Part shown: positions 260 through 24,730 of the stretch, in pieces
How the letters are laid out: every line of letters begins with the position of its first letter
Numbering within the stretch: the first letter of the stretch is position 1
From: Amoebophrya sp. AT5.2
Lineage: Eukaryota; Sar; Dinophyceae; Syndiniales; Amoebophryaceae
Direction of reading: 5' to 3'
DNA length: 24,807 nt
Assembly: GCA_005223375.1 (NCBI GenBank)
Contig: RXOD01004286.1
Location: forward strand, 1 to 24,807
Program-made: the position numbers and the translations under genes
The notes under the pieces: generated by a model
Told to the model about the DNA's origin: nothing
The model's database searches: none
Seen by the model: the letters and a program-made list of their open reading frames with translations, nothing else

Positions 260-278
260 GTGGTATCGCCAATACCAC
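260..278 (+). repeat. 7-bp stem-loop in leader
   Basis: GTGGTAT (260-266) pairs perfectly with ATACCAC (272-278) around a 5-nt loop. It begins one base before a TGGTATC string that resembles the start of a tRNA primer-binding site, but the match does not extend further. Confidence 0.4.
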
Positions 279-531: not shown

Positions 532-610
532 GTAAGTGGTGGAGAATTGGGTGGCTTGGATTCACTTGTTTGACTATCCTTACTCGGATTTTGTTGTTGT
601 TGCCTGGCAG
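532..610 (+). other. Candidate 79-nt intron in the 5' leader
   Basis: A consensus donor GTAAGT starts at 532. A T-rich tract (about 580-602) leads to CAG at 608-610. Removal would bring the leader close to the ATG at 636 and drop an ATG-less open stretch. The acceptor tract is the best one in the leader. This is inferred from splice-site shape only. Confidence 0.35.
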
Positions 611-635
611 CCTAACTAGCCTGGACGTTAGTTGT

Positions 636-1100
636 ATGTCTGCCAGCTCGATTAGTCCTAGTAGTTCGCTCAGCCTTGGCCCCGCTGTTGAGGGGGAGTC
701 CGAGCGTGAGGAGGAGTACTTCAACTGGGACTCCGACTCCGGCGACTCCGATTCCAGCCCCGCGCCCGCTGCTGGGTCCGTGCTGTCTACGGGTCCGAAC
801 TACACGGGCAGAGTCCGTAACGCTAGTTGGTTCCGCGACACCAGTTGGCCGAGCCCCTCCTATTTGGAGCGTGACTCGCTTCGGACGATCGCGCGCGCTT
901 GGGATTCCGTGCGGGAACTCCATCGCGACGTCCTTTTCCTTGAACGCGACTTAAGAATCGCGCGGCGTTGGGGTCCTTTCTATCGGATCCACGACTTCTT
1001 CCGCGGACTTCGAGGGTCCTACTTCCGCTCCGTCTGGTTTTGTCGTTGCCGATCTCGGCGACGCCCGTGGGACGCACAGCCGCTCCGCGATGCCAACTAA
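636..1100 (+). CDS. Accessory ORF1, Ser/Asp-rich protein of 154 aa, unknown function
   Basis: I do not recognise this protein. The frame is open from 528, but the first ATG is at 636, so I start there. Residues 1-50 are rich in Ser, Pro, Glu and Asp, including a run of SD repeats. The middle is helical and charged. The last 40 residues are basic and aromatic (Arg, Trp, Phe). Such acidic-to-basic polarity is common in proteins that bind nucleic acid or assemble, but that is inference. Its stop codon overlaps the start of ORF2 by 11 nt, which suggests coupled translation of the pair. ORFs placed before gag are unusual for Ty3-type elements. Confidence 0.5.
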   Translation: MSASSISPSSSLSLGPAVEGESEREEEYFNWDSDSGDSDSSPAPAAGSVLSTGPNYTGRVRNASWFRDTSWPSPSYLERDSLRTIARAWDSVRELHRDVLFLERDLRIARRWGPFYRIHDFFRGLRGSYFRSVWFCRCRSRRRPWDAQPLRDAN

Positions 1101-1749
1101 GGCAGAGCTCGAGCAGGAGTTGTTTTTGCTCAAGGGGCATCTTCGACAGCAGGACGACACGATCTCCGAGCTGCGCCTCGCGTCGAGCGAGAAGGACGCG
1201 AAGATCGAGAACAAGTCACTCCGCGTCGAAGAACTTGAGGTCGAGTTGGAACGCACAAAGAAGTCGCTGCGCCGCTCCCTTGCCGAGGGTATCATTCACA
1301 AAAAGACGATTAACGATCGGCAGGGAGAAGTTGATACTGCTCGCTCCGTGAAAGGGGATTGCGACCACGCCTCCCACCTGGCTGACCGCATTGTTGAACA
1401 TCTTGCTCGTGCCAAAGGGGGGAATCTCGACACGGACCTGCTCACCAACCTCGCGGAAGTTCTCAAGGGCCGCCTCGGTCAGGTCGAAGAGTCGATCGGA
1501 CCGTTCTCGAAGTTCCCGGACACGGAGGACGACGACAACGAAAAGGGGCAGGTGCAAGCTGCTAGCAGTTGCAAGGCCGCCGACGACGGCTTGTCGCTTA
1601 AGCGCCAGCGGAAGGGTAGTTCTGACGACCAGCTGCAGCTCACCGACGGCCACGACGCCGCGGGTGCCTCTTCGTCGAGCAAGCGCCAGAAGACTGCCAC
1701 TGCCTCGTCGAGCAAGCGCGAGCTGCGACGGCAGTACTACGACTTGTGA
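1090..1749 (+). CDS. Accessory ORF2, coiled-coil protein with basic tail, 219 aa
   Basis: The ATG at 1090 opens a frame of 219 codons, overlapping the ORF1 stop (TAA 1098-1100). Residues 4-70 are a strongly heptad-like, charged helix rich in Glu, Leu and Lys, so a coiled coil is likely. Residues 85-130 look like a second helical region. The C-terminal third is Asp-, Ser- and Lys-rich, with a nuclear-signal-like KRQRK and two copies of an SSSKR motif followed by a basic end. I see no enzyme motif. It may be a self-assembling nucleic-acid-binding accessory protein; this is inference. A conserved hairpin starts 18 nt after the stop. Confidence 0.6.
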   Translation: MPTKAELEQELFLLKGHLRQQDDTISELRLASSEKDAKIENKSLRVEELEVELERTKKSLRRSLAEGIIHKKTINDRQGEVDTARSVKGDCDHASHLADRIVEHLARAKGGNLDTDLLTNLAEVLKGRLGQVEESIGPFSKFPDTEDDDNEKGQVQAASSCKAADDGLSLKRQRKGSSDDQLQLTDGHDAAGASSSSKRQKTATASSSKRELRRQYYDL

Positions 1750-1766
1750 ATTGTTTGGGATAGTTC

Positions 1767-1799
1767 GTTGTTCGGCTTGGGCTTTCCAGTCGCAACAAC
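1767..1799 (+). repeat. Conserved covarying hairpin, copy H1
   Basis: Outer stem GTTGTT/AACAAC (1767-1772 with 1794-1799) has one bulged C at 1793. The inner stem CGGCTTGG (1773-1780) pairs with CCAGTCG (1786-1792) with a G-T pair and a bulged T. It is one of five copies that share the core and the two bulges. It lies between ORF2 and ORF3. Confidence 0.75.
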
Positions 1800-1943
1800 T
1801 TGCTTCTCCTTTGCCCGCCGACCCGATAACTATCGACATAAGCTTATCGTAACTGGCGAGCGCGATCTACTTCGATAGAGCAAATAACTACCACGAAGAT
1901 TTACTGTTACGCAAGCTTCAATTTTAGTGTCACCGCCTGCTTT

Positions 1944-1970
1944 GCTCGGCTTGGGCTTTCCAGTCGCAGC
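1944..1970 (+). repeat. Conserved covarying hairpin, copy H2
   Basis: GCT/AGC (1944-1946 with 1968-1970) encloses the same core as H1, with the bulged C at 1967. Flanks extend the stem with one mismatch. It lies 26 nt upstream of the ORF3 ATG and 177 nt after H1. Confidence 0.75.
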
Positions 1971-1996
1971 TAAGCTACGCTTTACCTAAAACTTGC

Positions 1997-2248
1997 ATGA
2001 GCCAATTCAGGATAGGTGATCGTGTTGAATGGGAAGCTCCCACTTCACTCGAACGAGTTGAATCGGGCGACGGGGCCCTGTCTTTCTGGCAAAGTGGCTT
2101 CGTCGCCGACATCTTCTTGACCGAAGCTGAGATATTTTCGTTTAACACCGGACTTCAGAGGTTCGAATTACGGAGGGTGTCTCACCGATTATTAAGGCTA
2201 GTCGAGCCTGAAATAGAACTAAGTCCTCGGGGAGGGGCCAGTAACTAG
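1997..2248 (+). CDS. Accessory ORF3, small 83-aa protein, possible SH3/Tudor-like barrel
   Basis: A short frame with ATG at 1997 and TAG at 2246. The N-terminus has an IGDRVEW motif, followed by a WQSGFVADIF strand and a closing RRVSHRLLRLVEP stretch. A Gly-Asp-x-Val start, alternating hydrophobic strands and small size are typical of SH3-like, Tudor or chromo-barrel folds, but no defining residue set is visible, so this is inference. The gene sits between hairpin H2 and ORF4. Being short, it could be a chance frame. The regular strand pattern and the hairpin just upstream argue for a real gene. Confidence 0.45.
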   Translation: MSQFRIGDRVEWEAPTSLERVESGDGALSFWQSGFVADIFLTEAEIFSFNTGLQRFELRRVSHRLLRLVEPEIELSPRGGASN

Positions 2249-2307
2249 ATTGACAGTTTTTCGATAAACCCATACATAACGCCTAACGAGGGCACCTTAA
2301 CTACGCC

Positions 2308-5300
2308 ATGGTAAGTATCCGGACCGTCCTCCAGTAAACCGCGCAAGCAGACGGACGGCGAGGCCTACCAAGAGGCCAGGCAGCTCGTCTGTGATCGCCT
2401 CCGGGTGGATCTCGGTACGACGGTCGGGCGTACCGTCCTCGCGGAAATTTTAAAGTTAGGGGTGACTACGCAGAACACCCTCATCGAAAACTACAATTCC
2501 GCGTACGAGGGGGCCTCGAAGAACGACTCGCCAGACGCAGCTACGGGCGACGACGGAGCCGACGACGACTTCAGGAAGTGCCGCGGCTTCTCTTCGTGGA
2601 CCGAGTGGAGACATTCGATCTCCGAGGCCCGCAAGCGCAACCTCCAGTTCCGGAACAGCTACCGCGAACGGACGCAGGGCATCGAAGAGAAATTGAACGA
2701 TCTGAACGAGTGGTTGGACAGCTCGGTGCTTCCTGCGTACCCGAGTCTTCGGACCCAGAATCGGGACGCACTGAGGCGCATTGTGTGCCAGTGGCCCACG
2801 CTTTCGCTCTCTGAAAGACGCATCGTTGAAAACGCGAAGACGCCGTGGCACGACATCCGCAAGGCCCGGCTGAAATTTCGCGCGGCTGACCTCGCGGCCC
2901 AGCGCGCTGCCGGCACCCTGCTAACGGGGCCGAACGCCGCACCGGTTCGGGACGCGGAAGAGATAAAAGCTGACCGCCCGGACTGTGATTGCGACCTGTT
3001 CGCGGCGCCTAGCTCCTCCAAACAGATCGTCGCCTTCAAGGACCCCGGAGGGAGAAGATTGCAGTTCAAGAACACCGCTAAGGCCGATTTCCGGAAGAGC
3101 CGGCTCAAAGGAACGCGGGAGGATACTTCGGACAGCCGTTCGTCATCTTCTTCTTCCTCCTCTTCCTCGGCCTCCCCTTCGCGCCGGACTCTTTCCACCA
3201 GCTCAGAGGTGAAGCGGGATCGCGAAGAACAGGACGCAGAGAGGAAGTCGGACGAAGAAGGAGGTCTGCCCTCGGAGACGCCTCGCGGGCGCGACACTGG
3301 AGTAAAACACGTTTCTAGCTCGGCCATCCCTGCTGGGGCCGCAGCTTCCGGTAGCAGCGGTACTCGTCCCGCATTGCTGAGCAACACAGGAAGGAAGGAT
3401 TCGGGAATTTTGAAGGATCGAGAGCGCGCCTCCTCAGGGGAAGGGCCTCCTCGGAAGAAAGTTCGCTTCGGGTCGCCTGGGGAGCCGGTCGTGCCACGTG
3501 AAGACCCCAGCGAGGTCGACCCGTGGTTTTCTGAGGAAGCTAAAGCTGAGGCCGCGCGCGTACAGAAGAAGTGGGACAAGATCCTCCAGGGCGACAAGCA
3601 CCGCCGGAGCAAAGTTCCCGCTGCCAAGTCCGGTGGTAAAGTTGCAGTTTCTTCGAGCGCTGTTTCGACTGAGGTTACAGCTGCTTCGACTGGATCGAAG
3701 CAGAAAACCGACGGGAAGGAATCTGTTTTTGCGGTAACGCAGTTACCTGTGGTCTCCACGGTCCCTGCTCCCTCGGGATCCGCCTCTGCTGCACTGCGCC
3801 CGGTGCCTACTGCACCCGCCGCGCTCACACACGTCTCCGGACGGACGGTCGTTCAAGTGAGTTCCTGGGGTTGCTTGCAGTCCGGCTCGCTCATCGTGAC
3901 CCAGGCCTCCGCCTGCGACGCGGCGCACCCGCTGATCCAGACCTCTGCTCGCAATACGCCGAGGCCGTCGCCGCCCGTCACTGGCTGCGCCGCTGCGCTC
4001 GCACACGTCTCCGAACGGACGGTCGTTCAATCGAGCTCCTGGGGTTGTTTGCAGTTCGGCTCGCTCACCGTGACCCAGGCCTCCGCCTGCGACACGGCGC
4101 ACTCGCTGATCCAGACCTCTGCCCGCAACACACCGGGGCCGCCACCGCTCGTCGCCGGCTGCACCACGAAGGCTCCTGCACACGCGCCCAGTGGAGTTCA
4201 CACGACTGCTGGGCAAGTAGGCGCGAAGAAGGCCACCCGTTTCTTCGCAGCTCCCCGCAGCAGTGGATCTACCGAGCAGGCGGAGATCGAGGAACGCTTC
4301 ATTACTGAAATAGTATATGATCCTGCAGGGTTAAAAGAAGGAAAGTTCATCCGAGTTGGTGAACGCCGCCGCACCGTCCGGGAGGTGTTCGGGTCGCGCG
4401 AGCGCGTCGCGGCTGCCGCTGCCTTTGCCTACGACGAGTACGTGAGTGCCGCGATCCGCGAAGAAGAAAAGTTACAAGCGGGTCGGGCCTCCGAGGATCG
4501 TCGCGCTTGCCCGCCAAAGGCTTCTGGCGTCCCAGCACCTGTACAACACGGCCACGTCGGCCCGCCGGCCCTGCCGCGCATTCGCCGCGGACCTGCTGAT
4601 CAGGTGCAGGTCGAAGACCGCTTCATCACTGAGGCGGTATATGACCCCGCCGGGTTAGAGGAAGGAAAATTCATCCGGATCGGGGAACGCCGTCGTACCA
4701 TCCGTGAAATATTTGGGTCGCGAGGGAAGGTTGCTGCCGTTGCAAGAGCTACCTGCGACGACGAAGCATCTGCTGTGAGAGCTGGAGCAGTCGCGAAGGC
4801 GAACTACGACGAGGACGTAGCTGAGGCCATTCGCGAAGAAGAGGCTTTGCAGGCACGCCGGGCTGCTAGCAACCGCCGCGCCTGCCCGCCGCGAACTTCC
4901 AGTACTCCAGCTACCGCTCCAGCGCCGGCCGAAGAAGAAGAAGATCTGTGGCCTGGCTATTCGGATCCTGAGGTCCTGGAGTTAGTCGCCGAGAGCAAGG
5001 CCCGTGGTTACGCACATTTGCATCACGACGACTACCACGCGTACGGCGTTAGCGATCATATTTCGCGTGCCCAGTGGCTCGTCTACAAGGCGCGTTCCAA
5101 GGCACGGTCTGGAGGGAAGAACACGCTGGTGCCCGTGAGTGCGCCTAGGGTCGTCCTGAAGGCTGCGCCCAAGGTCGTCCTGAAGGCTGCAGCTAAGCCC
5201 TCACCGACGTCGCGGAATCCTGCCAAGGCCGTTGGCGAGTACCACAAGCTCAACCAGCCCTACGGGTCTCTAGACTCGGAATCCCCGGTTCCCACCGGCA

Positions 5301-5650
5301 TTTTCGCGCGCGAACCCACAAAGGAGGAGGAGAAACTGTTCGAGCAGAAGGCCGAGGCCGCGCGGGAGCTGAAGCGCAAGGTCCGTGCCATCCGTGGCTT
5401 TATCACCGACACCGTCGAGGCCGCCGCGCCTGAGCCCGTTCCCAGTTCGGAGGCTGTTGCGGAAGTTCCGGCCACCGCGACGGAGCACGTCGACGCGGGA
5501 GCTGCTTCCAGCGCCCCGGCAGTCGCAGGACCTGCTGTCCCTAGCAGCACGACAGCTGCAGAACCTCCTGAGGAGACCTTAGAAGACCTCAGCCGGGAGC
5601 TCGACGACGCGATTCAGGGATTCGAGAAGTTGATACAGGAGGACGAGTAG
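2308..5650 (+). CDS. Accessory ORF4, ~1100-aa methionine-free repeat protein with spliced start
   Basis: The open frame runs without a stop to TAG at 5648-5650. It contains no in-frame ATG at all after the start. The only good candidate is ATG 2308-2310, followed at once by GTAAGT. Removing a 40-nt intron (2311-2350) joins ATG to the open frame at 2351. Unspliced, that ATG gives 9 codons and a stop. Seen in the protein (spliced numbering): a charged helical N-terminus (to about 230), a poly-Ser stretch near 264-275 with SR-like sequence, a basic disordered region with PRKKVRF near 365, a 58-aa tandem repeat (492-607), two copies of an FITE...GERRRT module (647-723 and 755-848), and an acidic Ala/Pro-rich C-terminus ending in a helix. 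I recognise no family. Likely a largely disordered structural or nucleic-acid-binding protein. Confidence 0.65.
2311..2350 (+). other. Candidate 40-nt intron directly after the ORF4 ATG
   Basis: The donor GTAAGTATCC starts one base after ATG, and AAGCAG ends at 2350. The 40-nt length moves the ATG into the open ORF4 frame, where the next codons ACG GAC GGC continue without a stop to 5650. A TAAAC string inside could serve as a branch site. It is supported by the lack of any other ATG in that frame. Confidence 0.6.
3821..4168 (+). repeat. Two-copy 174-bp tandem repeat inside ORF4
   Basis: Units 3821-3994 and 3995-4168 encode two 58-aa copies sharing HVS-RTVVQ, SSWGCLQ, GSL-VTQASACD and LIQTSARNTP. 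Conserved Trp and two Cys per unit suggest a folded module, or DNA-level duplication that has since diverged at about one residue in five. Confidence 0.85.
4286..4891 (+). repeat. Two copies of a FITE/GERRRT module inside ORF4
   Basis: Unit 1 (4286-4516) and unit 2 (4610-4891) share ERFITE/DRFITE, VYDPAGL-EGKFIR, GERRRT-RE-FGSR, AIREEE and RRACPP. Unit 2 carries an extra stretch of about 17 residues. The units start 324 nt apart. Highly conserved basic and hydrophobic residues suggest a selected domain; no known family is recognised. Confidence 0.8.
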
Positions 5651-6178
5651 TTTGGGTAGAAGAAGCTGTACAGCCACGCCCTACACTACTGTCTTCGATA
5701 GCGTCGAGATATAGATATACGCACCATTGCATACGCTGGCTTCAATCCTTTAGTGCTCGATTACCGGCTAACTAATTGAATTTCACCTCGAAGAGCCGTA
5801 CTTTCACCTAGTGCTGCTCCTACTTGTAGTTGCGGCGGATCATCTGTATTACTAGACCTGCACCCAGGCTAGCACGGGTTGCCGAGTGGCCCAGATCCTC
5901 GGCAGTTTTCTTTCATCTCCCGATTCGACTTTACTGCGGTCTACTGAAGTAGGGTTTGGACACCCGCCCGGACCGGGGCCGGCGCTGTTGCGCTGGCCGT
6001 TCTGAGCCCAAATAGGAAAATCTCTCCTGCTGTACGGTTCATTAAAACTCCAAACTTTGCTCGATCTACGTGTGCATATACTTCGTTTACGATCTCCTTC
6101 GGTAACTTTGTTCTCTGCCCACGTACTAGCACTATCACTGGTTCTTGAATCAATAAATTTCCTCATAGTTTGCCCAAG
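5651..6178 (+). other. Spacer between ORF4 and the Gag region, no gene seen
   Basis: This 528-nt stretch has no convincing coding frame on either strand. It is of mixed composition, with AT-rich parts (5690-5790, 6040-6170) around a GC-rich patch that folds into the hairpin at 5977-5998. It probably serves as leader for the Gag segment. Confidence 0.5.
5977..5998 (+). repeat. 9-bp GC-rich hairpin upstream of Gag
   Basis: GGCCGGCGC (5977-5985) pairs with GCGCTGGCC (5990-5998), all Watson-Crick except one G-T, with loop TGTT. It would be very stable in RNA and lies about 180 nt before the Gag ATG. It could act in packaging, dimerisation or translation control; none is shown. Confidence 0.6.
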
Positions 6179-8911
6179 ATGTTGTCCCGCACTAGGACTG
6201 ATGCGGGCGGTCGCCTGCCTAGGGTCGCGCTCTTGTTGCCCGTTCTGATTGGCTTTCTTTTCTTCGTGTTTCGGACTTCTAGTCTTGTGTCCTGGAGCCT
6301 TCCCCGACCTGATTCTCATCGCCGCGAGGGCGTCGAGGTATCTCCGTACTCATCTCAGTACCCCTTTTCCCGTTATAGGCTCTCCGACCTTGTCTTGACT
6401 GTCCCCGTTGGATCCCACCGTTCTTTTCGCTCTATTCGCCGCGAGGGCGTCGAGGTATCTCCGTACTCATATCAGTACTCTTTTCCACGCATGTTCGACG
6501 GTACACATGTTAAGACTGCTTTGCCAGATCGCGTGCAAGCGCTCGCTCTCGAGCCACGACTACTCGCTTCTACCTTTCATCGCAGGTGCAGCAAGCATCT
6601 TTGTCATAGTCCTGTCATCTCGGTAGACGCTGTTCCACCTCGATACATTCGACGCTCGAACGACCCCACGATAGATACAAGATCGATTAGTTTCAACAAC
6701 GCAAGTATTGATACGTATTCCGCTTCATTAGAAATACACGAGCTCCACAGCTATTTACCTCAGCACCTACTATTTGAGACGTACTGCAATCTCGGACCGC
6801 TCGGTTTGGTGCTTACCAATCGCAGCCCACGAGATTTCTGTGTTTGCTGCTCGGCTTGGTGTTTACCAGTCGCAGCTGTGAACTCAGACCAAAGTAATTT
6901 TACTGCACCCGCACCAGCAATACTTCTACGACTTGCGACCGGACCTGCGTCGCTCCTCGTGCACACGATGTCCGGCTCACGTGCGGGGACCCCACCTGCC
7001 AGGGCTGGGACCCCTCCCCTCCGGTCCACGACACCGACTCCGTCTGGACGCGCCTCTCTCCGTTCCGTCCCGGGTAATGTTCGCGGGGTCGCCAAACGGT
7101 CGGTGAGCGCGCGTGAGAACTTGAAGGACAAGCGGTCGCGGTCGAAGGACATCTCGGTCCTGAAAATACAAGGAGTACTCTACCAGAAGATCAGTTACGC
7201 TGGGTCGAGTTGGGCGATTGAACGCATAGGGAACCCAGTCACGGAGGACTGCAGTGGTGTTGTGAAGCTGTCGCGGGAGCAGCACAACACGCTGAAGCGG
7301 GCCGGGCAGATCGAGGAACTAAACATAGACGGGCTGCCGCTGAACGTCCAGAACCAGGTCAAGCGCGGGGATGTCCTGGTGACCACTGAGAGCGCTGTGG
7401 CTACCAAGACTGTGGGGGCCCTCCTGGCCTATACGATCGAGTTCCAGGACGCGGTCGAAAAGATTGGTCGCGGCCGGTTTGGGGACGCCAATGCTGGCTC
7501 CGTCCAGGACGACCCTCCCGCCACGGGACCACACCGCCCGGGTGACTTTGCCGGTTCGGGTGTCGGCGCTGCTGGTGAGGTCACGGGGTTATCTGGGAAT
7601 GTAGGAGTTGCTGAGCAGGCAGCTGGAGCATTTGCTCCCCTTGGGCCCTTTGGTAACCCGAATCAGCCTGAACCTAGCCTGAGTGGGCCTTCTTTCGTGC
7701 CGGGGCCTGGGTGCTTCACCAGCGTCGAGGGCAATGTGAGTTCTGCGAGCTCCAGTTCCTTTGAACTGCTTGGGACTCCTTCGGTCGAGTCACTCGCTTT
7801 CGAGGGCGCAGGGACCCCTGCTGACCAGTCGACACACACTCGGCTCAGGGTCTCGAGCCTGGGTGGGATCCCGGGCCTGTCGGGTTTCGGACAGGGTGAA
7901 TCGCAGGACGCCCGCGTTGCGCTGTCGCCGCCCCGGAGCTGCCAGCGTGTTGACGAGGTCTACGCGCCGGTCCCGGTGATTCGACCCAATGTCCGTGTTG
8001 AAGGAAGCTCCTCGAACAACCCGAACATGCCCGATTTCTTCGACCCGACACTCTCACCGGTTCCGGGGGCCCAGGTAGTCGGGACTGTCCCACTGAATGT
8101 GCCGATTGGGGCCGCGGCTCCTCCCGTGATGTATAACATCGGGACCCCGTTCAGCAGCGCTCCGTATGCCGCGGGGTCGGAGACCTCCATCTCCCCGATG
8201 GTTCCTTCGGCGCCACTGGACGTGGGCGGGGACCTCGACGAGAGTATGCATTCGGCCCAGGATTCCTCCGGCCCAGGCGCCTATCGGTCGGCCACTGGTG
8301 GCCAGCCACTTGGCCTGGCAAACCAGCGGGTCAGACAATTGGAGCTGGAGCTTGTCGAGGCGCGCCGGCAGACCGCGATCGCTCAGCAGCAGGTCCAGGT
8401 CAGCCGCCTTTTCCATGACGAAGAACGGACCCGCGTCGAGGCCGAGAGCGCTCAACAACGTGGACATGATCGCGCTTCGTTCGAGGCTTCCTTGCGAAAT
8501 GAGGTTACCTCTGTCAATGCCCGTGCCGAGGAGCGAGTCCGTGCCGCGGAAGATGCACGTGCTTCCGCTCTCGCCGACGCTGAGTACAATTTATCGCGTC
8601 TGACTGCCCGCGAGAAGGAGTTTCAGGCACAGCAGGCCAGTGACGCTGAGCAACACCGGTGTGAGGTTGACCTCCTCGCCCGCCGTGCCGCTGAATCTGC
8701 CGAATCTGTTCGTGCTTCCGCGTCGCGTGAAGCTGCTGTTGCGGCTTCGACCGCCTCCGCACTCCGACGCCAGATTGCTCAGGAGCAGGAGAGGTGTGAC
8801 ACACTCAGTGAGTCGTACTCGCCAGGTTCTCGAAGGCCAGAGAGCTTCCGCAGAGGCTGCTGCCACCGCCTCCGAGAAGCTGGCGCGGGACTTCGCCCTC
8901 CAGAACAATAA
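6179..8911 (+). CDS. Gag-like segment A (910 aa as read), N-terminal hydrophobic leader and coiled coil
   Basis: The first ATG of the frame is at 6179. A second in-frame ATG at 6968 (residue 264) may be the true start, because residues 1-263 include the hairpins H3/H4 and a 117-nt direct repeat, and their third codon positions become AT-rich. If 6179 is used, residues 15-31 form a hydrophobic signal-anchor-like segment. From 6968 the protein starts with an SGSRAGTPP Ser/Pro/Arg-rich tail, then a compact region (7150-7480) with mixed secondary structure, a Gly/Pro/Ser-rich linker (7490-8310) and a charged coiled coil from about residue 714. The coil is cut off near 8810, where it continues in the next frame. 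The final 34 codons to TAA are out of character. No capsid motif is certain. Confidence 0.55.
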   Translation: MLSRTRTDAGGRLPRVALLLPVLIGFLFFVFRTSSLVSWSLPRPDSHRREGVEVSPYSSQYPFSRYRLSDLVLTVPVGSHRSFRSIRREGVEVSPYSYQYSFPRMFDGTHVKTALPDRVQALALEPRLLASTFHRRCSKHLCHSPVISVDAVPPRYIRRSNDPTIDTRSISFNNASIDTYSASLEIHELHSYLPQHLLFETYCNLGPLGLVLTNRSPRDFCVCCSAWCLPVAAVNSDQSNFTAPAPAILLRLATGPASLLVHTMSGSRAGTPPARAGTPPLRSTTPTPSGRASLRSVPGNVRGVAKRSVSARENLKDKRSRSKDISVLKIQGVLYQKISYAGSSWAIERIGNPVTEDCSGVVKLSREQHNTLKRAGQIEELNIDGLPLNVQNQVKRGDVLVTTESAVATKTVGALLAYTIEFQDAVEKIGRGRFGDANAGSVQDDPPATGPHRPGDFAGSGVGAAGEVTGLSGNVGVAEQAAGAFAPLGPFGNPNQPEPSLSGPSFVPGPGCFTSVEGNVSSASSSSFELLGTPSVESLAFEGAGTPADQSTHTRLRVSSLGGIPGLSGFGQGESQDARVALSPPRSCQRVDEVYAPVPVIRPNVRVEGSSSNNPNMPDFFDPTLSPVPGAQVVGTVPLNVPIGAAAPPVMYNIGTPFSSAPYAAGSETSISPMVPSAPLDVGGDLDESMHSAQDSSGPGAYRSATGGQPLGLANQRVRQLELELVEARRQTAIAQQQVQVSRLFHDEERTRVEAESAQQRGHDRASFEASLRNEVTSVNARAEERVRAAEDARASALADAEYNLSRLTAREKEFQAQQASDAEQHRCEVDLLARRAAESAESVRASASREAAVAASTASALRRQIAQEQERCDTLSESYSPGSRRPESFRRGCCHRLREAGAGLRPPEQ
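6320..6485 (+). repeat. Direct repeat, 117-nt period, 34-nt identical core
   Basis: Positions 6320-6353 and 6437-6470 are identical over 34 nt. Similarity continues a further dozen bases with four changes. In the ORF frame both encode RREGVEVSPYS. Perfect nucleotide identity, including third positions, suggests recent duplication or selection on the nucleic acid, not only on the protein. Confidence 0.85.
6799..6826 (+). repeat. Conserved covarying hairpin, copy H3
   Basis: GCT/AGC (6799-6801 with 6824-6826), bulged C at 6823, inner stem CGGTTTGGT paired with ACCAATCG. Relative to H1 the C-G pair is replaced by T-A and the loop-closing G-T by T-A, so pairing is kept by double changes. It lies inside the open frame of Gag segment A, upstream of the ATG at 6968. 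Confidence 0.8.
6849..6876 (+). repeat. Conserved covarying hairpin, copy H4
   Basis: The same fold as H3, exactly 50 nt further on: GCT/AGC, bulged C at 6873, CGGCTTGGT paired with ACCAGTCG, loop GTTT. The loop-closing pair is T-A as in H3, the lower C-G pair as in H1. It lies 92 nt before the ATG at 6968. Confidence 0.8.
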
Positions 8912-10376
8912 GATCATCGAAGGCCAGGAGGCTTCTTCTAAGGCCTACGCCGAGCGGAGCCAGGAGTTGATCGCCGAGAAAACGCGTACCGCCGCCCTCC
9001 TGGAGGAACAGCAAGCCCAGGCAAGCCGTATTAGCGACCTTGCCGGACAGCTCAGGTCTCTGGAAACGCAGTCCGACCAGCGAGACTCTGCTTTGGTTAA
9101 CGAGCAGAACGACCAGCTTGCGAAGTTGTCTTCTACCGTCGCGCAGCTGCAGCAGCAGGCCACGGAGCAGCAAGCGGCTTCCGAAGCGGTTATGTCGCAG
9201 ATGCGCCGGGAGCGCGACGAAGCTGTGCTGTCAGCCACGGCGGCCTCCGGTCAACGAGAATCTGCGTTGGCCGACGACCATAGCGACCAGCTCGTGAGGT
9301 TGTCCGCCACCATCGCGCGCCTACAGCAGCAGGCTAGGGAGCAACAGGTGGCTTCCGAGACGGCTTTGTCACAGCTACGCCAGGAGCGCGACGAGGCTGT
9401 GGTGGCGTCCAAGGCCAGTGGATCGGTTTCCAATGGATATAAAGTAGAGGTTGGAAAGTTGAAGGCCCAAATCGCCGCTGCGATACCAATGATTGGGCAG
9501 ATCAGTGCCTCCTCGTGCGGCATTGGTGGTACCGTGTTGGCTTCCTCCGGGGGCGAAACCGACGTTGGGCGTGACGAGCACGAGTTCAACCAGCCGTACC
9601 GAAGCTCGGTTGCGGGAGCGTCGCGCGGCGGTGGCGGTGCCGGCTCGCTGAATACCGAGCGTTACGCCCGTGAGGCTGCATCTTCCCCGGATGGCCATCA
9701 CGGCGGTAACCCTTCTTTGGGGCGGACAAGTGGAACACAAGACCCACGGGGTCACATACCTAGCAGATTCACCGGTACGAGCCCGCCCCCATTCGGTGGA
9801 CCCAATGTGAACGACGCTACAGGCTCCTCCCACCAGGAATTCTCGCTCCCCGCTCGTGAGACCACCCCGGGGTTCGGGGCAGAGAGGCTCAATCAGACGA
9901 CGTGGCCCCGCGGTTTGACCCCTCCTAGCCGTAGTGCCGGGCAGCAGTGGACGTGGAGTCGCGATGGGTGCATGGCAGGGTCCGGTTCATCCAAGAGCGC
10001 ACGCAAAGGGGATCCTTCCTGGGGGTCTCAAGGAGAGAGGCCTGCCAAGGCATCTTGGAAGAAAGGAGGGGCTGCCCCGGGGTTTGAGGTAGAGAGGCCT
10101 AGCCTTCCGTTCCCTGCCTCTGGCACTACGGCCGCGTCCCGGAATCCTGGCGGCACTGTTACTTCTTCATCACTCCTAGGAGCTCTACAGCCTGTACTAG
10201 GTGAGGGCCCTCTGACTTTCGGTCCTGGCGGAAGCGTTTTGCCGTCGGGTGATCACGCTGAGGCTGCGAGCATCATTTTCGGAGGCGGTAACGAGTCCGC
10301 CCACGAAGATGGGACAGCAAGCCAAGCGAAGGCGAGACGCCGGAATCCATCAATGACGGTGGGGCCGGCGCCTTAG
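8808..10376 (+). CDS. Gag-like segment B: coiled coil with 58-aa tandem repeats, then Gly/Pro-rich linker
   Basis: This frame takes over the coiled coil of segment A at about 8808-8815 and runs to TAG at 10374. It has no suitable ATG at the junction, so it is probably made as a continuation of segment A through a +1 frameshift, an intron, or because one base is missing or extra in this copy. Residues up to about 9440 are a long Ala/Glu/Gln/Arg coiled coil with two 58-aa repeats (9078-9425). After that comes a Gly-, Ser- and Pro-rich region with aromatic residues and two PGF-x-x-ER motifs, typical of a disordered assembly linker. Its last about 25 codons overlap the next frame, which already reads as plausible protein from about 10292. 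No enzyme domain is seen. Confidence 0.6.
   Translation: MSRTRQVLEGQRASAEAAATASEKLARDFALQNNKIIEGQEASSKAYAERSQELIAEKTRTAALLEEQQAQASRISDLAGQLRSLETQSDQRDSALVNEQNDQLAKLSSTVAQLQQQATEQQAASEAVMSQMRRERDEAVLSATAASGQRESALADDHSDQLVRLSATIARLQQQAREQQVASETALSQLRQERDEAVVASKASGSVSNGYKVEVGKLKAQIAAAIPMIGQISASSCGIGGTVLASSGGETDVGRDEHEFNQPYRSSVAGASRGGGGAGSLNTERYAREAASSPDGHHGGNPSLGRTSGTQDPRGHIPSRFTGTSPPPFGGPNVNDATGSSHQEFSLPARETTPGFGAERLNQTTWPRGLTPPSRSAGQQWTWSRDGCMAGSGSSKSARKGDPSWGSQGERPAKASWKKGGAAPGFEVERPSLPFPASGTTAASRNPGGTVTSSSLLGALQPVLGEGPLTFGPGGSVLPSGDHAEAASIIFGGGNESAHEDGTASQAKARRRNPSMTVGPAP
9078..9425 (+). repeat. Two-copy 174-bp coiled-coil tandem repeat
   Basis: Units 9078-9251 and 9252-9425 encode 58-aa copies sharing QR-SAL, DQL--LS, QLQQQA-EQQ-ASE and RQERDEAV-like blocks. 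58 is not a multiple of seven, so the heptad phase shifts between units, as in some long coiled coils with skips. Confidence 0.85.
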
Positions 10377-10441
10377 CAGCGACCTCCCCGCGACCTCCGT
10401 CTGGTTTGGGACCGAGCCCTGCGGACCTCGTCGGTGCAACA

Positions 10442-19006: not shown

Positions 19007-22000
19007 CAGCCTTTGAGGCGCTGCGTGGGATTTTCGCGTTGGGCCAGTATTCCCGTCTCTCTGGTGTTAGCAAAGCTCCGCTGCCCGCACTCACAACCGT
19101 TGACTACGTAGTGCGTACTGGGCAGTTCCGGTCCAGCCCCAACGAGAGATACATTGTTGACTTGGTCTTCCCTTCCACGGAGACTATCTGTGTGGTGCCT
19201 TGCGGACTGGTAGCGTCCAAGATCGACCTGCTTAAGGGCATCGACTTCAAGGTCACCAACTGGGCTTCGCGCGAGGTCAGCGTGACGCCGCAACTCTTCG
19301 TCACGGAAATGGGTAGCAGCAAGAGGATCGATCTACGTGGGGACCTCCTAATAGCTCCTTCCGGGACTGATGCCGCGAGCTTTGCGGCGGTAGAAGACAG
19401 CGCCATTCTCCAGGGCGCGGACGAGGCCGCGGTCGACGCAGCCATCGCCAAGCGGTTGAAGCGAGCCGAGTACAAAATCACACCGGACCAGTTCTCTCGC
19501 GAATGCGCTGAACGGCTCTTCGATGTCCTCAAGGACTGGCCCCTCGCCCTGCAGTGCTGCTTGACTAAGGTTTTCATGGTTTTCCGGGTGGTGCTGTGGA
19601 CCGAGGGGCTTCCGTTCCCGACTGTCATGGTTGCCAGTGCGTATCATCCGATCAAGCCGGACGCGAAGACGGGCGGCTATCGGCGAATTTCCTTAGAGGA
19701 TCTGTTGGACAAAATCCTCCGATTCCACCTAGCCGAGCAGGTGTACGAATCGTTGCTGGGGAAGTACCTGCCGATTTACGGCTTGCCACTGCACCTCAGC
19801 GCTCTTTTCTTAGCTGTGCGCAAGGCGGATTGCCTGGGGCGTTTGATCGTCGATGCGGTCCAGTGTAACAAGCTCTTTCCTCCTTGCAGCTACCCCTTAG
19901 CCTCTTGCGAGATGGTCCACGGAAACTTACTCACGACGCACGTGGCCATGACACTGGGTGACTACATCGCCAAATATGGGCGTGGGGCTGAACTGACACC
20001 TAGTGTGGAAGTTGGCGGAGCACTGCAAGCCTACATCCCGGCGGAGAAGAACGCAGTCGGAAACCTTAAGGAGTTCCTTGTAAAGGGAGATGCTACCTTC
20101 CGGCTTTATCGTTTTACGGACTTGCCTGATTCCGGCAAGCGCGGCGATTCGGTGCTGATGAAGGCTAGCCCCGCAGGTCTCCTTCCCCAAAATGGGGGCC
20201 GGTTCCTCGATATGAAACCAACTGCCGCACGGAGACCGAGGATCCGGGCCGTCGAGCTACTGCACCGTATGCATGAAGGTTGGTTCAAGCACCCGCCTTC
20301 ACCCTGCGAATTTCGCGTTTACAAGGTGATTGAGGGGCTCACAGATCAGGCGTTTGACGCTGCCGCTTCTCAGCCCGGTGGTGTTGAACGTGTCGCGCGG
20401 AAGGTCAGGAACGAGAAAGAGGCGAAGAAAGTCTTCCTCGGCACACCCTCTGTCCCCTTTCTCTGTGCGAACTGCGTTGCGGTTGACACGAACGCGGACT
20501 ATGTCATCTATAGCTGTGGGTCTCTGGCTGACCCTGCTGCCGTGGTCTGCCCACCTGTCGCCGTGCCTGCCGAAGCCGAAAACAAGAAGACGAGCAAGAA
20601 ACGCAAAGCCAAGGGACCACAGAACAAACGAAACAAGAAGGACACCAAGAATGTTGGTCTCCCTGACGGTGGTAACTCTGACTCCCCGCGCAACGCCGCC
20701 GATCCTTCAGCTGGCAGCAGCACGGACCCTCCACGCCAGCCTCCTACCGACGTGCTTGGGGAGGATGTCCTTCCCCTCGATGAGCCCAACAAGGACTTTG
20801 AGGAGGCCGCTGACGAAGCTGGTGATGCGCCCGGTTTAGAGCTGGGCACGGATGGGCCGGGTCTCTTGCTGCCTGCTCCGCACGGCGCTCCAGACGTTAT
20901 TGTCGACCGTGACCGCGAAGAAATCACCATCCCTGGGGTGGGTGGTGGTGCGCCTCAGAATCGTATTCGGACTGGCGTAAAGAAGGGTAAGAAGAAGGCC
21001 ACACTTTTGCCTCTACCTGACCCGATTGGGGACGGTCTTGGTGATGGCGTACCGGTTGCTGGGGAGTCGTTGGAACCGGGTGCCGCCGCGGACGAAGATT
21101 TTCGTGTCAAGCCCGACACCCTGGTCAAGCTACGCACCCAGCAGCTCAAGGACCGAGCCGGGTTCACGAAGAGAGCCAGGCAGCTCGTGGAGTACTTTTC
21201 GGCCAGCGAGCAGGTGTGTTCCGTTGCCCTCGATCCCATGTGCCTCATTGACGACGATCTAGGTGCACAGCCTGTCGAGTCGGGGAAGTACCTGTACAAC
21301 TTGTGTCTAAATCTACTGCGGATGCACTTTGGCGCAGATCTCCAATTCGCGCCTTCGGGGATCCTTGTGGTGTCGAGTCTCCACAAGACCGATGCTGAGC
21401 TCTGGGGCCTTCCGAAATTCGCTACGCGCATCTGCTGTCTCGGGACTGATCCGACGGAGGGATACCGGTTTGGGTTCACGCAGGATTTTACCACGGTGGC
21501 AGACGGGCTCTGGGTTCTGCCCGAACGGGTGTACGTAGTATACAGTCGTGAGATGTCTTCGCTCATAAACATTGATGCCGACTTTCTACGGGCGCTCCGC
21601 ACGGGTCAACACCGGGAGTTGCGGTACGTGTTCGCTGCGCATGACGCCCGCTCTCAAGGTCTCTCCGAAGCTGCTGTCCAAAAACGGGTCGAGGAGGCTC
21701 TTAGCGTACGCAAGAAACCTACGGCTGCTAAGGTGCGCGAAAAGACAGCGGACTCGAAACGGTTTGTGATCCAAGGAGGACTTGTTTTTGTTTTCAGGTC
21801 GGTCTCGCGCGGCTTTTACGTCTGGCTGCCGAAGGACGTCCAGAAGGAGGTGAAGCTGGAAGGGGTAGTTTACCGGAACACCACGCCGCTACGGGTCCTC
21901 TGTTCGTTTGCACACACCACGCGCGGACATGCTGGCCCGACCGCCACCTACGAAATCGTCTTGTCTCTGGGCTTCTTCCACGACGGGTTGCACTCGGAAA

Positions 22001-24111
22001 CGGAGTTAGTCTACAAACTCTGTTTGGAATGCAGCTCGGTCACGGCTGGTCTTAGTCCTCCGGGCATTTCTCGATCCGAGGGCTACGAAGCTCTGCCAAG
22101 TGTGGCGCTATTTGTCGATTTTATGACAAATTTGCCCAGAACAAAGCGGGGGAACACCGTCATTTTTACGGCGAATGATGGTGTGTCCGGCTTCCCGTAT
22201 TATTATGCTGGGAAGCATGCTACCGCGGAGTTTGCGGCAAGCTGCGTTGTCGACATCTATACCAAATACATCGAATGGTATCTACTCCAGCGCAGTGACA
22301 ACGGATCGCATTTTTTGAAGTTGTTCCGCGAGTACCTGGAGCAGCGCCTCACCAAGTTGAACCCGAACAAGGTCCTCCCGCAGCATAAGTACTCCCCTAA
22401 GTACAGTGCCCGCTCGAACGCACCCGTGGAGGCACCTCATAAAATCGCGAATCGGGGTATTCGTCTGGAGCTGTTTGGGGAAGCTGGGTTCGAGCGCGTT
22501 GTCAGTTCGGAAGGGCCTAACTCAGACATGATGCTCACCGAGGAGTCATTCGTCACCGACGCGCCGGACGACGCGCTCTGGGACGAGAAGCTGGACGGGG
22601 TCATTTCGCGTATGGTGGAGCAACCCCTCTCTGGGCTCGGTGGGCTCAGCATCGCGCACCTCCACCGGGGTCGCAGTTCAGCTAACGCCAACAGAGGGCC
22701 CCGCTACACCTCGGGTTTGCTCACGGATGCTACGGGCAAGGAGGTCTCTTCACTTTTGCGGCGCGTGCAGGATCACGGCTTAGCACTGAAGCGGCATCGG
22801 GCCGAAGAGGCTGCTATCAGGGCACGCAAACGCTACGAAGCGCTACATGGATCCGATTTGGGATGGCTCACCCCCGGAGAAGTCGTAATGCGCGTGAAGG
22901 TTTGCCCGCGCAAATTCGAGACGAAACTGGTACGACAGTTGTACGTGCTGAGGCGGGTTTACCAGAACTCTGCCGATCTCGAGCGGCTTGATGGACGTCG
23001 GTATTTCGGGGGGAACCCGTTAAACGTTGTGCTCATGCGCCCCATCAGTTTGTGCTACTCCGCCGTTGTAGCGTACTTGTACGCTTCGAGGCTCAGTAAA
23101 ACCGAAGTCGCTCGGCGTATTCACGACTTGGAGATGTGTGGCACTGAATTCGTTCACGAACTACGTGACGCTGTTGGGCGGTATGGCAGTATTGCTGCGG
23201 GGCGACTGATCACGATCGGATCGCACAATATCGACGGGCTGCGTGCTGGGTTCAAGCGCGGATGGAAATTGCAGATTGCAGGCGAGATTTTGCAACAGAC
23301 TGCCTGCTTTGGACAGGAGACCAAGATCCAGCCGCATCACGAGGGGGAATGGCGTGACATCTTGCATTGCATGTCCGGAACGACTGTGAGCACTGCGCAC
23401 ATCGACTTTCGTAGTTGTACTACTCGCGCGGGTAACTACGGGAGTTTCGCGATGCTAAGGTCCGGCGTCACGCTCCCAGATACCCCTTCACTAGAAGACG
23501 ACAAGGACTACAATCCTGGGCTGGAGGGGCGTATCATCGTTGCAGACCTCGGTGGGGGCGTGGCTGCAGTGAGTTTGTACAACGTGAACAGCGGGAAAGC
23601 GCTGAGTCGCTTGGGGACGCGCTTGCAGTGGGACAAGGCAGTTGCCGATCTCATGATCAATTTGAAAGGAAGGCTTGATTATGTTTTTGTCATCGGCGAC
23701 TTCAACGCCCTATGGGACCATAGTGCATCTTCTCGCGGCTCCGAGGTGACTTACCTCGATGAAGAAGGGGAACGCATCCCTTCCCTCACTGTTGAGGAAA
23801 GCGCATCCCTCCACGGCATGGTTACCAGCAGCAAGTACACCAAAATTGCAGTTACCCACTCCTCGGACGGGTGTCCCTACAACTTCCGCTGCGGGCGTGG
23901 TCACACGGGGGATTTTAGCTTGAGCCACCTCTTCGCCGCTAGCGGACGTGGAAAGACCATCACTCCCCCCATCGGGAATCCTTCGCTCCAAAATTTCACC
24001 GTGGAGAAAATTCCCTCGACGGAAACTGACGCTTTTGTGATGGGGCATCTCGCCATATTGGCTAGCCAGTACGACCATTGCGGCCTCATCTTCCAGGCAG
24101 TGTCGCAGTGA
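18883..24111 (+). CDS. RT-fingers-like region + integrase + AP-endonuclease-like polyprotein, 1742 aa from the frame junction
   Basis: No ATG lies near the start of the meaningful reading, so it is probably fused to the upstream polyprotein by a -1 shift at 18880-18883. Seen in order (numbered from 18883): acidic helix; unknown region; RT-fingers-like motif with ALFLAVRKAD and RLIVDAVQCN (about 305-345); basic nuclear-signal-like stretch KKTSKKRKAK (about 567-590); Pro/Asp-rich linker; integrase zinc finger H-x4-H-x30-C-x2-C (His 1011 to Cys 1050); integrase core with Asp 1079, Asp 1139 in SDNGSHF, Glu 1183; a GPY/F-like post-core region (about 1330-1385); and an exonuclease III/APE-type domain (about 1440-1742). 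Ends with TGA at 24109-24111. Ty3 polyproteins normally stop after the integrase tail, so the nuclease is an extra domain. Confidence 0.85.
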   Translation, partial: AEKIDPARIEEEIGKLDEEDVATPAVKVLRQGLPAADATCLTAFEALRGIFALGQYSRLSGVSKAPLPALTTVDYVVRTGQFRSSPNERYIVDLVFPSTETICVVPCGLVASKIDLLKGIDFKVTNWASREVSVTPQLFVTEMGSSKRIDLRGDLLIAPSGTDAASFAAVEDSAILQGADEAAVDAAIAKRLKRAEYKITPDQFSRECAERLFDVLKDWPLALQCCLTKVFMVFRVVLWTEGLPFPTVMVASAYHPIKPDAKTGGYRRISLEDLLDKILRFHLAEQVYESLLGKYLPIYGLPLHLSALFLAVRKADCLGRLIVDAVQCNKLFPPCSYPLASCEMVHGNLLTTHVAMTLGDYIAKYGRGAELTPSVEVGGALQAYIPAEKNAVGNLKEFLVKGDATFRLYRFTDLPDSGKRGDSVLMKASPAGLLPQNGGRFLDMKPTAARRPRIRAVELLHRMHEGWFKHPPSPCEFRVYKVIEGLTDQAFDAAASQPGGVERVARKVRNEKEAKKVFLGTPSVPFLCANCVAVDTNADYVIYSCGSLADPAAVVCPPVAVPAEAENKKTSKKRKAKGPQNKRNKKDTKNVGLPDGGNSDSPRNAADPSAGSSTDPPRQPPTDVLGEDVLPLDEPNKDFEEAADEAGDAPGLELGTDGPGLLLPAPHGAPDVIVDRDREEITIPGVGGGAPQNRIRTGVKKGKKKATLLPLPDPIGDGLGDGVPVAGESLEPGAAADEDFRVKPDTLVKLRTQQLKDRAGFTKRARQLVEYFSASEQVCSVALDPMCLIDDDLGAQPVESGKYLYNLCLNLLRMHFGADLQFAPSGILVVSSLHKTDAELWGLPKFATRICCLGTDPTEGYRFGFTQDFTTVADGLWVLPERVYVVYSREMSSLINIDADFLRALRTGQHRELRYVFAAHDARSQGLSEAAVQKRVEEALSVRKKPTAAKVREKTADSKRFVIQGGLVFVFRSVSRGFYVWLPKDVQKEVKLEGVVYRNTTPLRVLCSFAHTTRGHAGPTATYEIVLSLGFFHDGLHSETELVYKLCLECSSVTAGLSPPGISRSEGYEALPSVALFVDFMTNLPRTKRGNTVIFTANDGVSGFPYYYAGKHATAEFAASCVVDIYTKYIEWYLLQRSDNGSHFLKLFREYLEQRLTKLNPNKVLPQHKYSPKYSARSNAPVEAPHKIANRGIRLELFGEAGFERVVSSEGPNSDMMLTEESFVTDAPDDALWDEKLDGVISRMVEQPLSGLGGLSIAHLHRGRSSANANRGPRYTSGLLTDATGKEVSSLLRRVQDHGLALKRHRAEEAAIRARKRYEALHGSDLGWLTPGEVVMRVKVCPRKFETKLVRQLYVLRRVYQNSADLERLDGRRYFGGNPLNVVLMRPISLCYSAVVAYLYASRLSKTEVARRIHDLEMCGTEFVHELRDAVGRYGSIAAGRLITIGSHNIDGLRAGFKRGWKLQIAGEILQQTACFGQETKIQPHHEGEWRDILHCMSGTTVSTAHIDFRSCTTRAGNYGSFAMLRSGVTLPDTPSLEDDKDYNPGLEGRIIVADLGGGVAAVSLYNVNSGKALSRLGTRLQWDKAVADLMINLKGRLDYVFVIGDFNALWDHSASSRGSEVTYLDEEGERIPSLTVEESASLHGMVTSSKYTKIAVTHSSDGCPYNFRCGRGHTGDFSLSHLFAASGRGKTITPPIGNPSLQNFTVEKIPSTETDAFVMGHLAILASQYDHCGLIFQAVSQ
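19795..19912 (+). other. RT fingers-like motif downstream of RNase H
   Basis: The stretch encodes ALFLAVRKAD, then GRLIVDAVQCNKLFPP and SYPLAS. These match, in order and spacing, the Ty3 RT fingers pattern (hydrophobic-V-P-K-K, R-hydrophobic-V-D-x-x-x-x-N, Y-P-L). In normal RTs this lies 25-40 residues before motif A. Here it is about 2.6 kb after motif A, in another frame. The catalytic Asp expected after it is not seen (MTLGDYI instead). Confidence 0.55.
21760..22600 (+). other. Integrase zinc finger and catalytic core
   Basis: The N-terminal zinc finger is complete: His 21913, His 21928, Cys 22021, Cys 22030, preceded by the FVIQGGLVF strand typical of Ty3 integrases. The core has Asp at 22117 (FVDFMTN), Asp at 22297 (RSDNGSHF) and Glu at 22429 (APVEAPHK). 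The spacing is 59 and 43 residues; most Ty3 and retroviral integrases have about 35 between the last two, so there is a small insertion. Confidence 0.85.
23200..24111 (+). other. AP-endonuclease / exonuclease III-type (EEP) domain at the integrase C-terminus
   Basis: Motifs in order: SHNIDGLRAGFKRG (Asn 23227, Asp 23233) matching the Asn-x-Asp-Gly-Leu-Arg-Ala signature of APE1; FGQETK (Glu 23317) matching the metal-binding Glu; GRIIVADL then LYNVNSG (Tyr 23578); VIGDFNALW (Asp 23698, Asn 23704); GDFSLSH (Asp 23911) where APE1 has its late Asp; and YDHCGL (Asp 24073, His 24076) for the final Asp-His. Length is about 300 residues, as in the family. The resemblance is closer to APE1/ExoIII repair enzymes than to most LINE endonucleases (inference by eye). 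Expected activity: nicking at abasic sites or 3'-end trimming. Confidence 0.8.
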
Positions 24112-24265
24112 ATAAGCAGCGAAGCTGACTTTGATCGCAAAATCCTCGGCTTCATGTCGCAGGTCCGGCGCCATCAGGAGCCGCGTCAACCAAGAAATAT
24201 GAAATGAGTGGCATGGTGTGTCGGACGGATAATTTTTAATTTCTATCTCATGAACGGATTTTAAC

Positions 24266-24277
24266 AGAAGGGGAGGA
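24266..24277 (+). promoter_or_regulatory. Candidate polypurine tract
   Basis: AGAAGGGGAGGA is a 12-nt all-purine run after a T-rich stretch (GGATTTTAAC), 155 nt past the last stop codon. LTR elements use such a tract to prime plus-strand DNA, just before the 3' LTR. The expected TG at an LTR start does not follow directly. Confidence 0.35.
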
Positions 24278-24584
24278 TCACTATTTCACTCAGAAAGCAA
24301 TTTCAATTTTTTACCGATTACAATTCTATTTGAATATCATTTCTTTTAGCCAGAGAGGCGCTGAGCACATATAGTTGAGGTGACTAAAAACAAATGATCA
24401 TACTTTCTGGCACTTGAATCGATCACTTCTTCGCATTTCTGAATTACTTCATCGTCATCGAATATTTCTGCCATCAACGTCGAGGGTCGTGGGACCAAGT
24501 GATGAGATCTTTGCTTTCGGTTCTTTGTTCATTTTCAGCTCGCCAATAGCTCGCTGATGGTCACTTCGCATACAAAAGATCCTC

Positions 24585-24636
24585 CCCTAGCTTTGCTCAA
24601 TTTCAGACTGCCCTAGCTTTGCTCAATTTCAGACTG
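24585..24636 (+). repeat. 26-bp perfect tandem duplication
   Basis: Positions 24585-24610 and 24611-24636 are identical over all 26 bases. The second copy runs into hairpin H5, sharing its last base with the stem. Confidence 0.95.
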
Positions 24637-24671
24637 ATCGTTCGGCTTGGGGCTTCCCAGTCGCAACGATC
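24636..24671 (+). repeat. Conserved covarying hairpin, copy H5
   Basis: The longest copy: outer stem GATCGTT/AACGATC (24636-24642 with 24665-24671), bulged C at 24664, inner stem CGGCTTGGG paired with CCCAGTCG, loop GCTT. The outer stem differs in sequence from H1 yet pairs perfectly, and the loop-closing pair is G-C. It lies in the 3' region, outside any gene. Confidence 0.85.
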
Positions 24672-24730
24672 TAGTACAAGAAATACTACATTCACGTAAG
24701 GGCCTGAAAATGGCGTAGGAGCAAGGTATA

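Follow-up and report, generated by a model that had tools for sequence, protein, structure and literature searches.

Five bulged hairpins along a likely giant retroelement with an AUG-depleted 5' region in Amoebophrya sp. AT5.2

The window analyzed here is an entire contig (C490, 24,807 bases) of the Amoebophrya sp. AT5.2 assembly, and it is likely to represent one giant retroelement. Four upstream ORFs, designated ORF0 to ORF3, precede a large Gag-Pol region, and a family of five hairpins, H1 to H5, is distributed along the contig (Table 1).

Table 1. Features of the window
Feature	Position	Strand	Details
AUG-depleted 5' region	1..6967	+	contains H1-H4
ORF0	636..1100	+	154 codons; weak AUG context, weak coding signal; last 11 bases overlap ORF1
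ORF1	1090..1749	+	219 codons; Gag-Pol-like codon usage
Hairpin H1	1767..1799	+	55.0 bits (covariance model); 5-base loop; outer pairs GUU/AAC
Hairpin H2	1939..1975	+	57.7 bits; 5-base loop; GCU/AGC type
ORF2	1997..2248	+	83 codons; weak AUG context; coding status uncertain
ORF3	2315..5650	+	1111 codons, 0 methionine; Gag-Pol-like codon usage
Hairpin H3	6790..6834 (core 6799-6826)	+	42.8 bits; distal outer stem
Hairpin H4	6838..6887 (core 6849-6876)	+	57.2 bits
Gag-Pol region	6968..24111	+	split over several frames in the window copy
Polypurine-tract-like run	24266..24277	+	upstream of H5; putative role, read from sequence
Hairpin H5	24633..24675 (core 24640-24667)	+	55.1 bits; GUU/AAC type like H1; in 3' region

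Judged by eye, the Gag-Pol region appears to contain protease (DTG), reverse transcriptase (YVDD), RNase-H-like and DDE-type integrase motifs. The presumed reverse transcriptase, at 17190-17960, seems by the same inspection to carry a long acidic serine-rich insertion between its motif-B-like and YVDD stretches. No profile confirmed a reverse transcriptase in Gag-Pol and there was no Pfam RT match; the integrase zinc finger gave a weak match to Integrase_H2C2 (E 0.13), and the predicted structures of the integrase-like and RT-like pieces were unusable, with mean pLDDT values of 33.8 and 30.9. The end of Gag-Pol matched Pfam PF03372 (Exo_endo_phos) with an E of 3.4e-05 and 24.2 bits, just below the cut-off of 24.5, and AP-endonuclease chains from the PDB matched this terminal nuclease domain with E values from 1.1e-4. 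The APE-like endonuclease domain, at 23203-24108, follows the integrase-like domain in the same reading frame, a pairing that to our knowledge is unusual for a retroelement.

No long repeat was found between the contig ends, and both ends may lie inside an LTR. The terminal bases 1-6 and 24802-24807 are identical (AGTAAG), possibly by chance and possibly as the trace of a circular or LTR-closed path. A 7-bp hairpin at 258-280 with TGGTATCGCC might be where an initiator-type tRNA primer binds; a search with an initiator-tRNA-type pattern gave no match for an initiator tRNA. Near the 3' end of the contig, a strong hairpin at 24728-24755 is unrelated to H1-H5.

A relative was found on contig C1489 (14,928 bases), which aligns with window positions 6961-22001 in seven segments whose nucleotide identity is 67.5-77%, except for 91% in one of 76 bases. 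C1489 is open along its whole length in a single frame, 4976 codons in all, and the window and C1489 proteins are 84% identical over 1296 alignment columns. For the Gag-Pol piece, dN/dS between the two is 0.048 at a dS of 2.24, which is near saturation. This indicates strong purifying selection on that part of Gag-Pol in the family. The window copy, split over several frames in the same region, probably belongs to this selected family and was disrupted only recently. The covariance model of the hairpins found none on C1489, which begins 11 bases upstream of the match at window position 6961, extends to about 22001 and stops short of all five hairpin positions. No protein relatives were found among about 5.8 billion proteins, where the 7988-7993 top word-sharing candidates were scored per query, and protein scans of IMG/VR matched 1, 119 and 11 stretches, none of which was confirmed.

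The plus strand of the 5' region contains 12 ATGs versus 54.4 expected from dinucleotides, and no other of the 64 triplets there has an observed/expected ratio (O/E) as low as the 0.22 of ATG. For CAT, its reverse complement, the O/E is near normal over the same 6967 bases, at 0.91 (0.66 in 1-2314), while the ratio for ATG is 0.10 in ORF3 and 0.99 in Gag-Pol. Among 54 strands of 27 loci of the same assembly, a non-random set drawn from a pattern search, the lowest ATG O/E was 0.58 and the median 0.98. ORF3 has 2 off-frame ATGs, whereas 1000 synonymous shuffles gave 14.6 on average and never fewer than 7. ORF0, ORF1 and ORF2 contain methionine at the start only; their off-frame counts are 1 versus 1.7, 0 versus 2.4 and 1 versus 1.1, and taken alone these ORFs show no clear AUG depletion and are too short to show any. 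The depletion indicates that the region is read as message, and its simplest cause is that scanning ribosomes cross 1-6967 to the Gag-Pol AUG. An internal translation start, one of the roles offered for the hairpins in the initial annotation, therefore fits poorly, since 7 kb of AUG-depleted sequence ahead of Gag-Pol suggests that ribosomes arrive by scanning.

The 12 ATGs comprise the starts of ORF0 to ORF2, the one at 2308 and eight others, six of which open frames of 2-39 codons. Start contexts are weak for ORF0 and ORF2, moderate for ORF1 and strong for AUG 2308, which is the nearest upstream of ORF3 but lies in another frame. With the exception of this strong AUG, the region has the layout expected of leaky scanning, namely upstream ORFs without an internal AUG and with weak or moderate starts. 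At 2308-2316, just upstream of ORF3, the strong-context ATG is directly followed by GTAAGT, which is splice-donor-like. The sole two ATGs within ORF3, at 4317 and 4641, occupy the same place in a repeated protein module, and each opens a 5-codon frame. The ATGs at 6179 and 6491 share the Gag-Pol frame. The frame that is open from AUG 6179 into Gag-Pol contains H3 and H4 and has no stops, versus 6 and 12 in the other frames; although its codon usage is non-coding-like, H3 and H4 may for this reason overlap coding sequence. H1 and H2 lie near the end of an AUG-free run of 907 bases, and H3 and H4 near the end of one of 461 bases.

All five hairpins proposed in the initial annotation are present at their places on the plus strand and share a common core. 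Written as RNA, the 5' arm of the core is G-Y-U-C-G-G-Y, a bulged U, U-G-G and then a variable pair that is missing in H1 and H2; the loop is GCUU or GUUU (GCUUU in H1 and H2), and the 3' arm is C-C-A-R-U-C-G, a bulged C and A-R-C. Both bulges, reported earlier as a T in the 5' arm and a C in the 3' arm, are invariant in the five copies. Four pairs separate them, the third of which is G-U in every copy. H1 and H2 are identical at 26 of 27 bases. H3 departs from the strict core by one compensated pair, C-G to U-A (T-A in DNA), in agreement with the annotation; the loop-closing G-T pair assigned there to H1 and H2 is not predicted, both copies folding with the longer loop.

The strict core has four matches in the window (H1, H2, H4 and H5) versus none in 100 dinucleotide shuffles. 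A covariance model built from the five copies recovered them at 42.8-57.7 bits, and the next-best site on either strand of the window, on the minus strand, scored 14.2 bits; since the model was trained on the same five copies, this shows that the window holds no further ones, not that the five are real. The copies lie near start or stop codons. H1 starts 17 bases past the ORF1 stop codon, H2 ends 21 bases upstream of the ORF2 AUG, H4 ends 80 bases upstream of the Gag-Pol AUG, and H5 is 521 bases downstream of the last Gag-Pol stop. This bears out the earlier placement of the copies in or next to leader, intergenic and 3' regions, except that H3 and H4 may be partly coding. The outer pairs are of two types: GUU/AAC in the copies after ORF1 and after Gag-Pol (H1 and H5) and GCU/AGC in those ahead of ORF2 and Gag-Pol (H2-H4), a split by position that may be due to chance with five copies. 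Two tandem 26-base units at 24585-24636 run into the foot of H5, and their octamer CTTTGCTC recurs at H2 (1940) and at 6055.

Several lines of evidence indicate that the hairpin structure itself has been selected. In alignment A1, pairing holds in 91.9% of the 74 cells, versus a mean of 80.8 in shuffles, and both sides have changed in 8 of 16 pairs (shuffle mean 3.6), which upholds the compensatory stem changes claimed earlier. For four of the five pair measures no shuffle out of 500 attained the observed value; for the remaining one, further pair types, 10 did. Such shuffles, however, do not give probabilities for related sequences, which can exceed shuffles. A flank-swap test took the 12-base flanks of each copy with the core pairs forced. 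Native flanks gave -8.9, -7.7, -9.7, -12.4 and -11.5 kcal/mol for H1 to H5 (mean -10.0), whereas all 20 swapped combinations were weaker, at -1.1 to -7.5 kcal/mol (mean -3.45). The outer arms are thus unrelated between copies yet pair, as had been noted, and the fit of sequence-unrelated flanks to their own partners is a mark left by selection on a structure. Taken together, pair counts and swapped flanks support the earlier claim of such selection, and we consider the hairpin structure well supported.

Individual folds differ in strength. Stem stabilities are about -15 to -24 kcal/mol, and single-fold z-scores for H1 to H5 are -1.9, -1.6, -2.2, -3.1 and -4.7, which is modest for H1-H3 and clearer for H4 and H5. 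In wider context, H2, H4 and H5 retain pair probabilities of at least 0.95, apart from about 0.5 for the pair beside the bulged U. For H3 the values are intermediate with 40 flank bases, at 0.33-0.55, and rise to 0.61-1.0 with longer flanks. Against the structure, a refolding of H1 is predicted in context, its core pair probability being 0.00 with 40 or 100 flank bases and about 0.4 with 200.

All five copies lie in sense orientation. Since they do so, and since the G-U pair is invariant and the copies stand near start and stop codons, the structure is more likely to act in RNA than in DNA. Bulged stem-loops can also be recognized as folded single-stranded DNA, and the hairpins might thus serve reverse transcription, integration or recombination as a DNA-level signal; with one strand used throughout, a G-U pair (G-T in DNA) that favors RNA and positions that track ORF borders, we hold this to be very improbable.

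The hairpin family seems to be limited to one element. In the 50.7-Mb assembly (2759 contigs) the strict core occurs four times, always in the window contig, and the reversed control gave none. With up to 3 mismatches there were 121 near-matches, three of them H3-H5, versus 113 in the reversed control, among the matches listed. A shorter-loop pattern with up to 2 mismatches gave 12 near-matches, including H1 and H2, versus 2 in the control, a small excess that argues against pure chance. When 19 two-mismatch near-matches (10 with the shorter loop and 9 among the matches listed) were scored with the model, the best reached 18.6 bits, and pattern search plus model scoring, from which more-diverged copies can escape at the pattern step, found no further copy in the assembly. 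Exact hairpin patterns matched 10, 0 and 1 stretches in IMG/VR and, for one pattern only, 27 in GTDB genomes. Chance expectations estimated by hand, about 13 for the 10-match pattern with an assumed size of IMG/VR and about 30 for the GTDB pattern, are of the same order as observed. The 37 IMG/VR and GTDB loci scored at most 27 bits and the lone further IMG/VR match 11.9 bits, versus 42.8-57.7 for the real copies, and these matches look like chance. Rfam gave no window matches at the gathering score; three stretches with hairpins, when scanned permissively, yielded 0, 2 and 2 Rfam hits, none of which came near that score.

Restriction to one element is what would be expected if the hairpins were read by a cognate protein of that element. 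It weighs against the suggestion in the annotation of a tiny mobile hairpin that copies itself. The short, near-identical cores, above all those of H1 and H2, and the small excess of near-matches in the assembly would suit such an entity, but the outer arms differ between copies and nonetheless pair, and the near-matches score far below the real copies; we give a mobile hairpin next to no credence. MITE-like copies with the same arms elsewhere in the genome were not found by the assembly pattern searches or the flank swaps.

We tentatively propose that H1-H5 are binding sites for a protein encoded by the element and act as packaging tags and, near the ORF2 and Gag-Pol starts, as translational operators, a reading that we regard as possible rather than probable. 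That the core is constant while the outer arms change and still pair favors a hairpin read by a protein over a copied sequence, and the position of H2 and H4 shortly ahead of start codons, on a message-like stretch, points to an operator at H2 and at H3/H4. We infer both the binder and the function, and the docking role is a prediction.

In such a scheme, the element would produce one full-length RNA serving as both message and template, along which ribosomes would scan from ORF0 to Gag-Pol. Gag or a product of ORF1-3 would recognize the fixed core, with the outer stem merely presenting it. While this protein was scarce, the element RNA would be translated. Once abundant, it would occupy H2 and H3/H4 and lower initiation at ORF2 and Gag-Pol, and it would also direct the RNA into particles; H1 and H5 would offer it additional places to bind. 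A packaging signal, another role offered in the initial annotation, would fit. Against the scheme, the stems need not by themselves halt a scanning ribosome. H5 also speaks against an operator: in the 3' region control of translation would be pointless, and packaging alone would explain this copy. No hairpin lies before ORF0, before ORF1 or directly before ORF3, and no RNA-binding domain or binder was identified in the element. The predicted refolding of H1 in wider context and the possible coding overlap of H3 and H4 also count against docking.

IRES activity, shunting and RNA processing are possible alternatives, and the main rival is a direct role in ribosome movement. The hairpins would then act on ribosomes as take-off, landing or re-initiation aids, helping them along one polycistronic RNA from ORF0/ORF1 to ORF2 and then to Gag-Pol. 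AUG depletion over 7 kb reveals that translation constrains this very region, H1 starts 17 bases after the ORF1 stop, and the pairs H1/H2 and H3/H4 each stand ahead of the next AUG. The available text of two papers describes plant pararetroviruses that shunt via a stem just after a short ORF and use leaky scanning via AUG-free ORFs (PMC5902531, PMC3291615). However, no AUG-started ORF ends just ahead of H2-H5, ORF1 is not short, the stems are small, H5 is located in the 3' region, and AUG depletion alone makes a hop unnecessary. We therefore consider a role in ribosome movement rather unlikely.

The hairpins might instead be recognized by a nuclease that cuts there, or by the transcription machinery, which would begin an RNA there, so that shorter ORF2 and Gag-Pol messages arise. 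The copies do border ORFs (after ORF1, before ORF2, before Gag-Pol and after Gag-Pol), but separate messages would not demand that AUG be depleted throughout the 7 kb, the 3.3-kb ORF3 included, and cutting does not need two copies per junction. We judge RNA processing improbable.

The protein-docking reading can be combined with scanning into a wider proposal, in which ribosomes would cross about 7 kb through four AUG-cleared upstream ORFs and a protein-read code of five hairpins would decide between start, pass and packaging. We offer it as a speculation that is unlikely to hold in full. If true, the hairpin code and the 7-kb scan would be a new kind of retroelement expression control. How elements and viruses obtain multiple proteins from a single eukaryotic RNA, and how that RNA is turned from a message into a genome, are both long-standing questions. 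The co-occurrence of the hairpin family with an AUG-depleted region of about 7 kb, as against 900 nt in the best precedent in the available literature text, provides short RNA parts that are directly testable. AUG depletion is also transferable, since it can flag scanned regions in orphan elements without detectable relatives.

Literature searches yielded only PMC5902531 for AUG-free leaders and retrotransposons, and vertebrate 5'UTR/uORF work for AUG depletion and leaky scanning; neither result is proof of absence. Among the papers listed for retrotransposons, nothing comparable turned up on stem-loops, repeated hairpins or packaging signals, which again is no proof of absence. New here are AUG depletion over 7 kb in a region that carries H1-H4 and the methionine-free ORF3.

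In overall size the element resembles Burro, a group of giant Ty3/gypsy-like elements of planarians whose ORF1 is given as 4873 aa in the available text (PMC6431247). Like Burro as described there, it exceeds 20 kb, has additional ORFs and would encode a polyprotein close to 5000 aa long, judging from the 4976 open codons of C1489 (PMC6431247). Unlike Burro in that description, it has no Pfam RT match and has a candidate APE-like nuclease domain at its end. The available parts of the Burro paper do not mention repeated hairpins or AUG depletion (PMC6431247). Membership of the element in the LTR order is not established, since no LTR was seen and the reverse transcriptase lacks profile support.

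A second comparison is with plant pararetroviruses. In rice tungro bacilliform virus (RTBV), according to the available text, ORFs I and II contain no internal AUGs over a 900-nt scan (PMC5902531). The element resembles RTBV, badnaviruses and CaMV, as far as the available parts of the sources describe them, in its presumed polycistronic RNA, its ORFs free of AUGs past the start, its weak or moderate start contexts and its structured ORF borders (PMC5902531, PMC3291615). Unlike the 900 nt given for RTBV, the depleted region here is about 7 kb with a methionine-free ORF of 1111 codons. Unlike the stems of pararetroviruses in those accounts, the hairpins are short and repeated, and no short ORF ends ahead of H2-H5. 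The shunt layout, in which a short ORF ends at the base of a stem, was not found; H1 recalls it loosely, following an ORF of 219 codons.

A third comparison is with the hairpin TR of phage MS2; TR carries a bulged base. According to the available text of one source, TR works in translational control as an operator and in assembly as a recognition site, and further packaging signals are dispersed along the MS2 RNA, although disruption of TR gives no discernible defect (PMC4751978). Dispersed packaging signals are several hairpins that share one fixed core on a single RNA, and the five copies, with a fixed core and free but paired arms, show this on what would be one RNA. As with TR in that account, several hairpins of one type would lie on a single genomic RNA. 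Unlike TR, there described as the operator of the replicase cistron in a bacterial RNA phage, the window copies have two bulges and a putative binder, and they lie 21 and 80 bases ahead of presumed eukaryotic starts, after an ORF and in a 3' region. We claim no membership in that system; by analogy, H1-H5 may work in the manner of the MS2 operator and its dispersed packaging signals.
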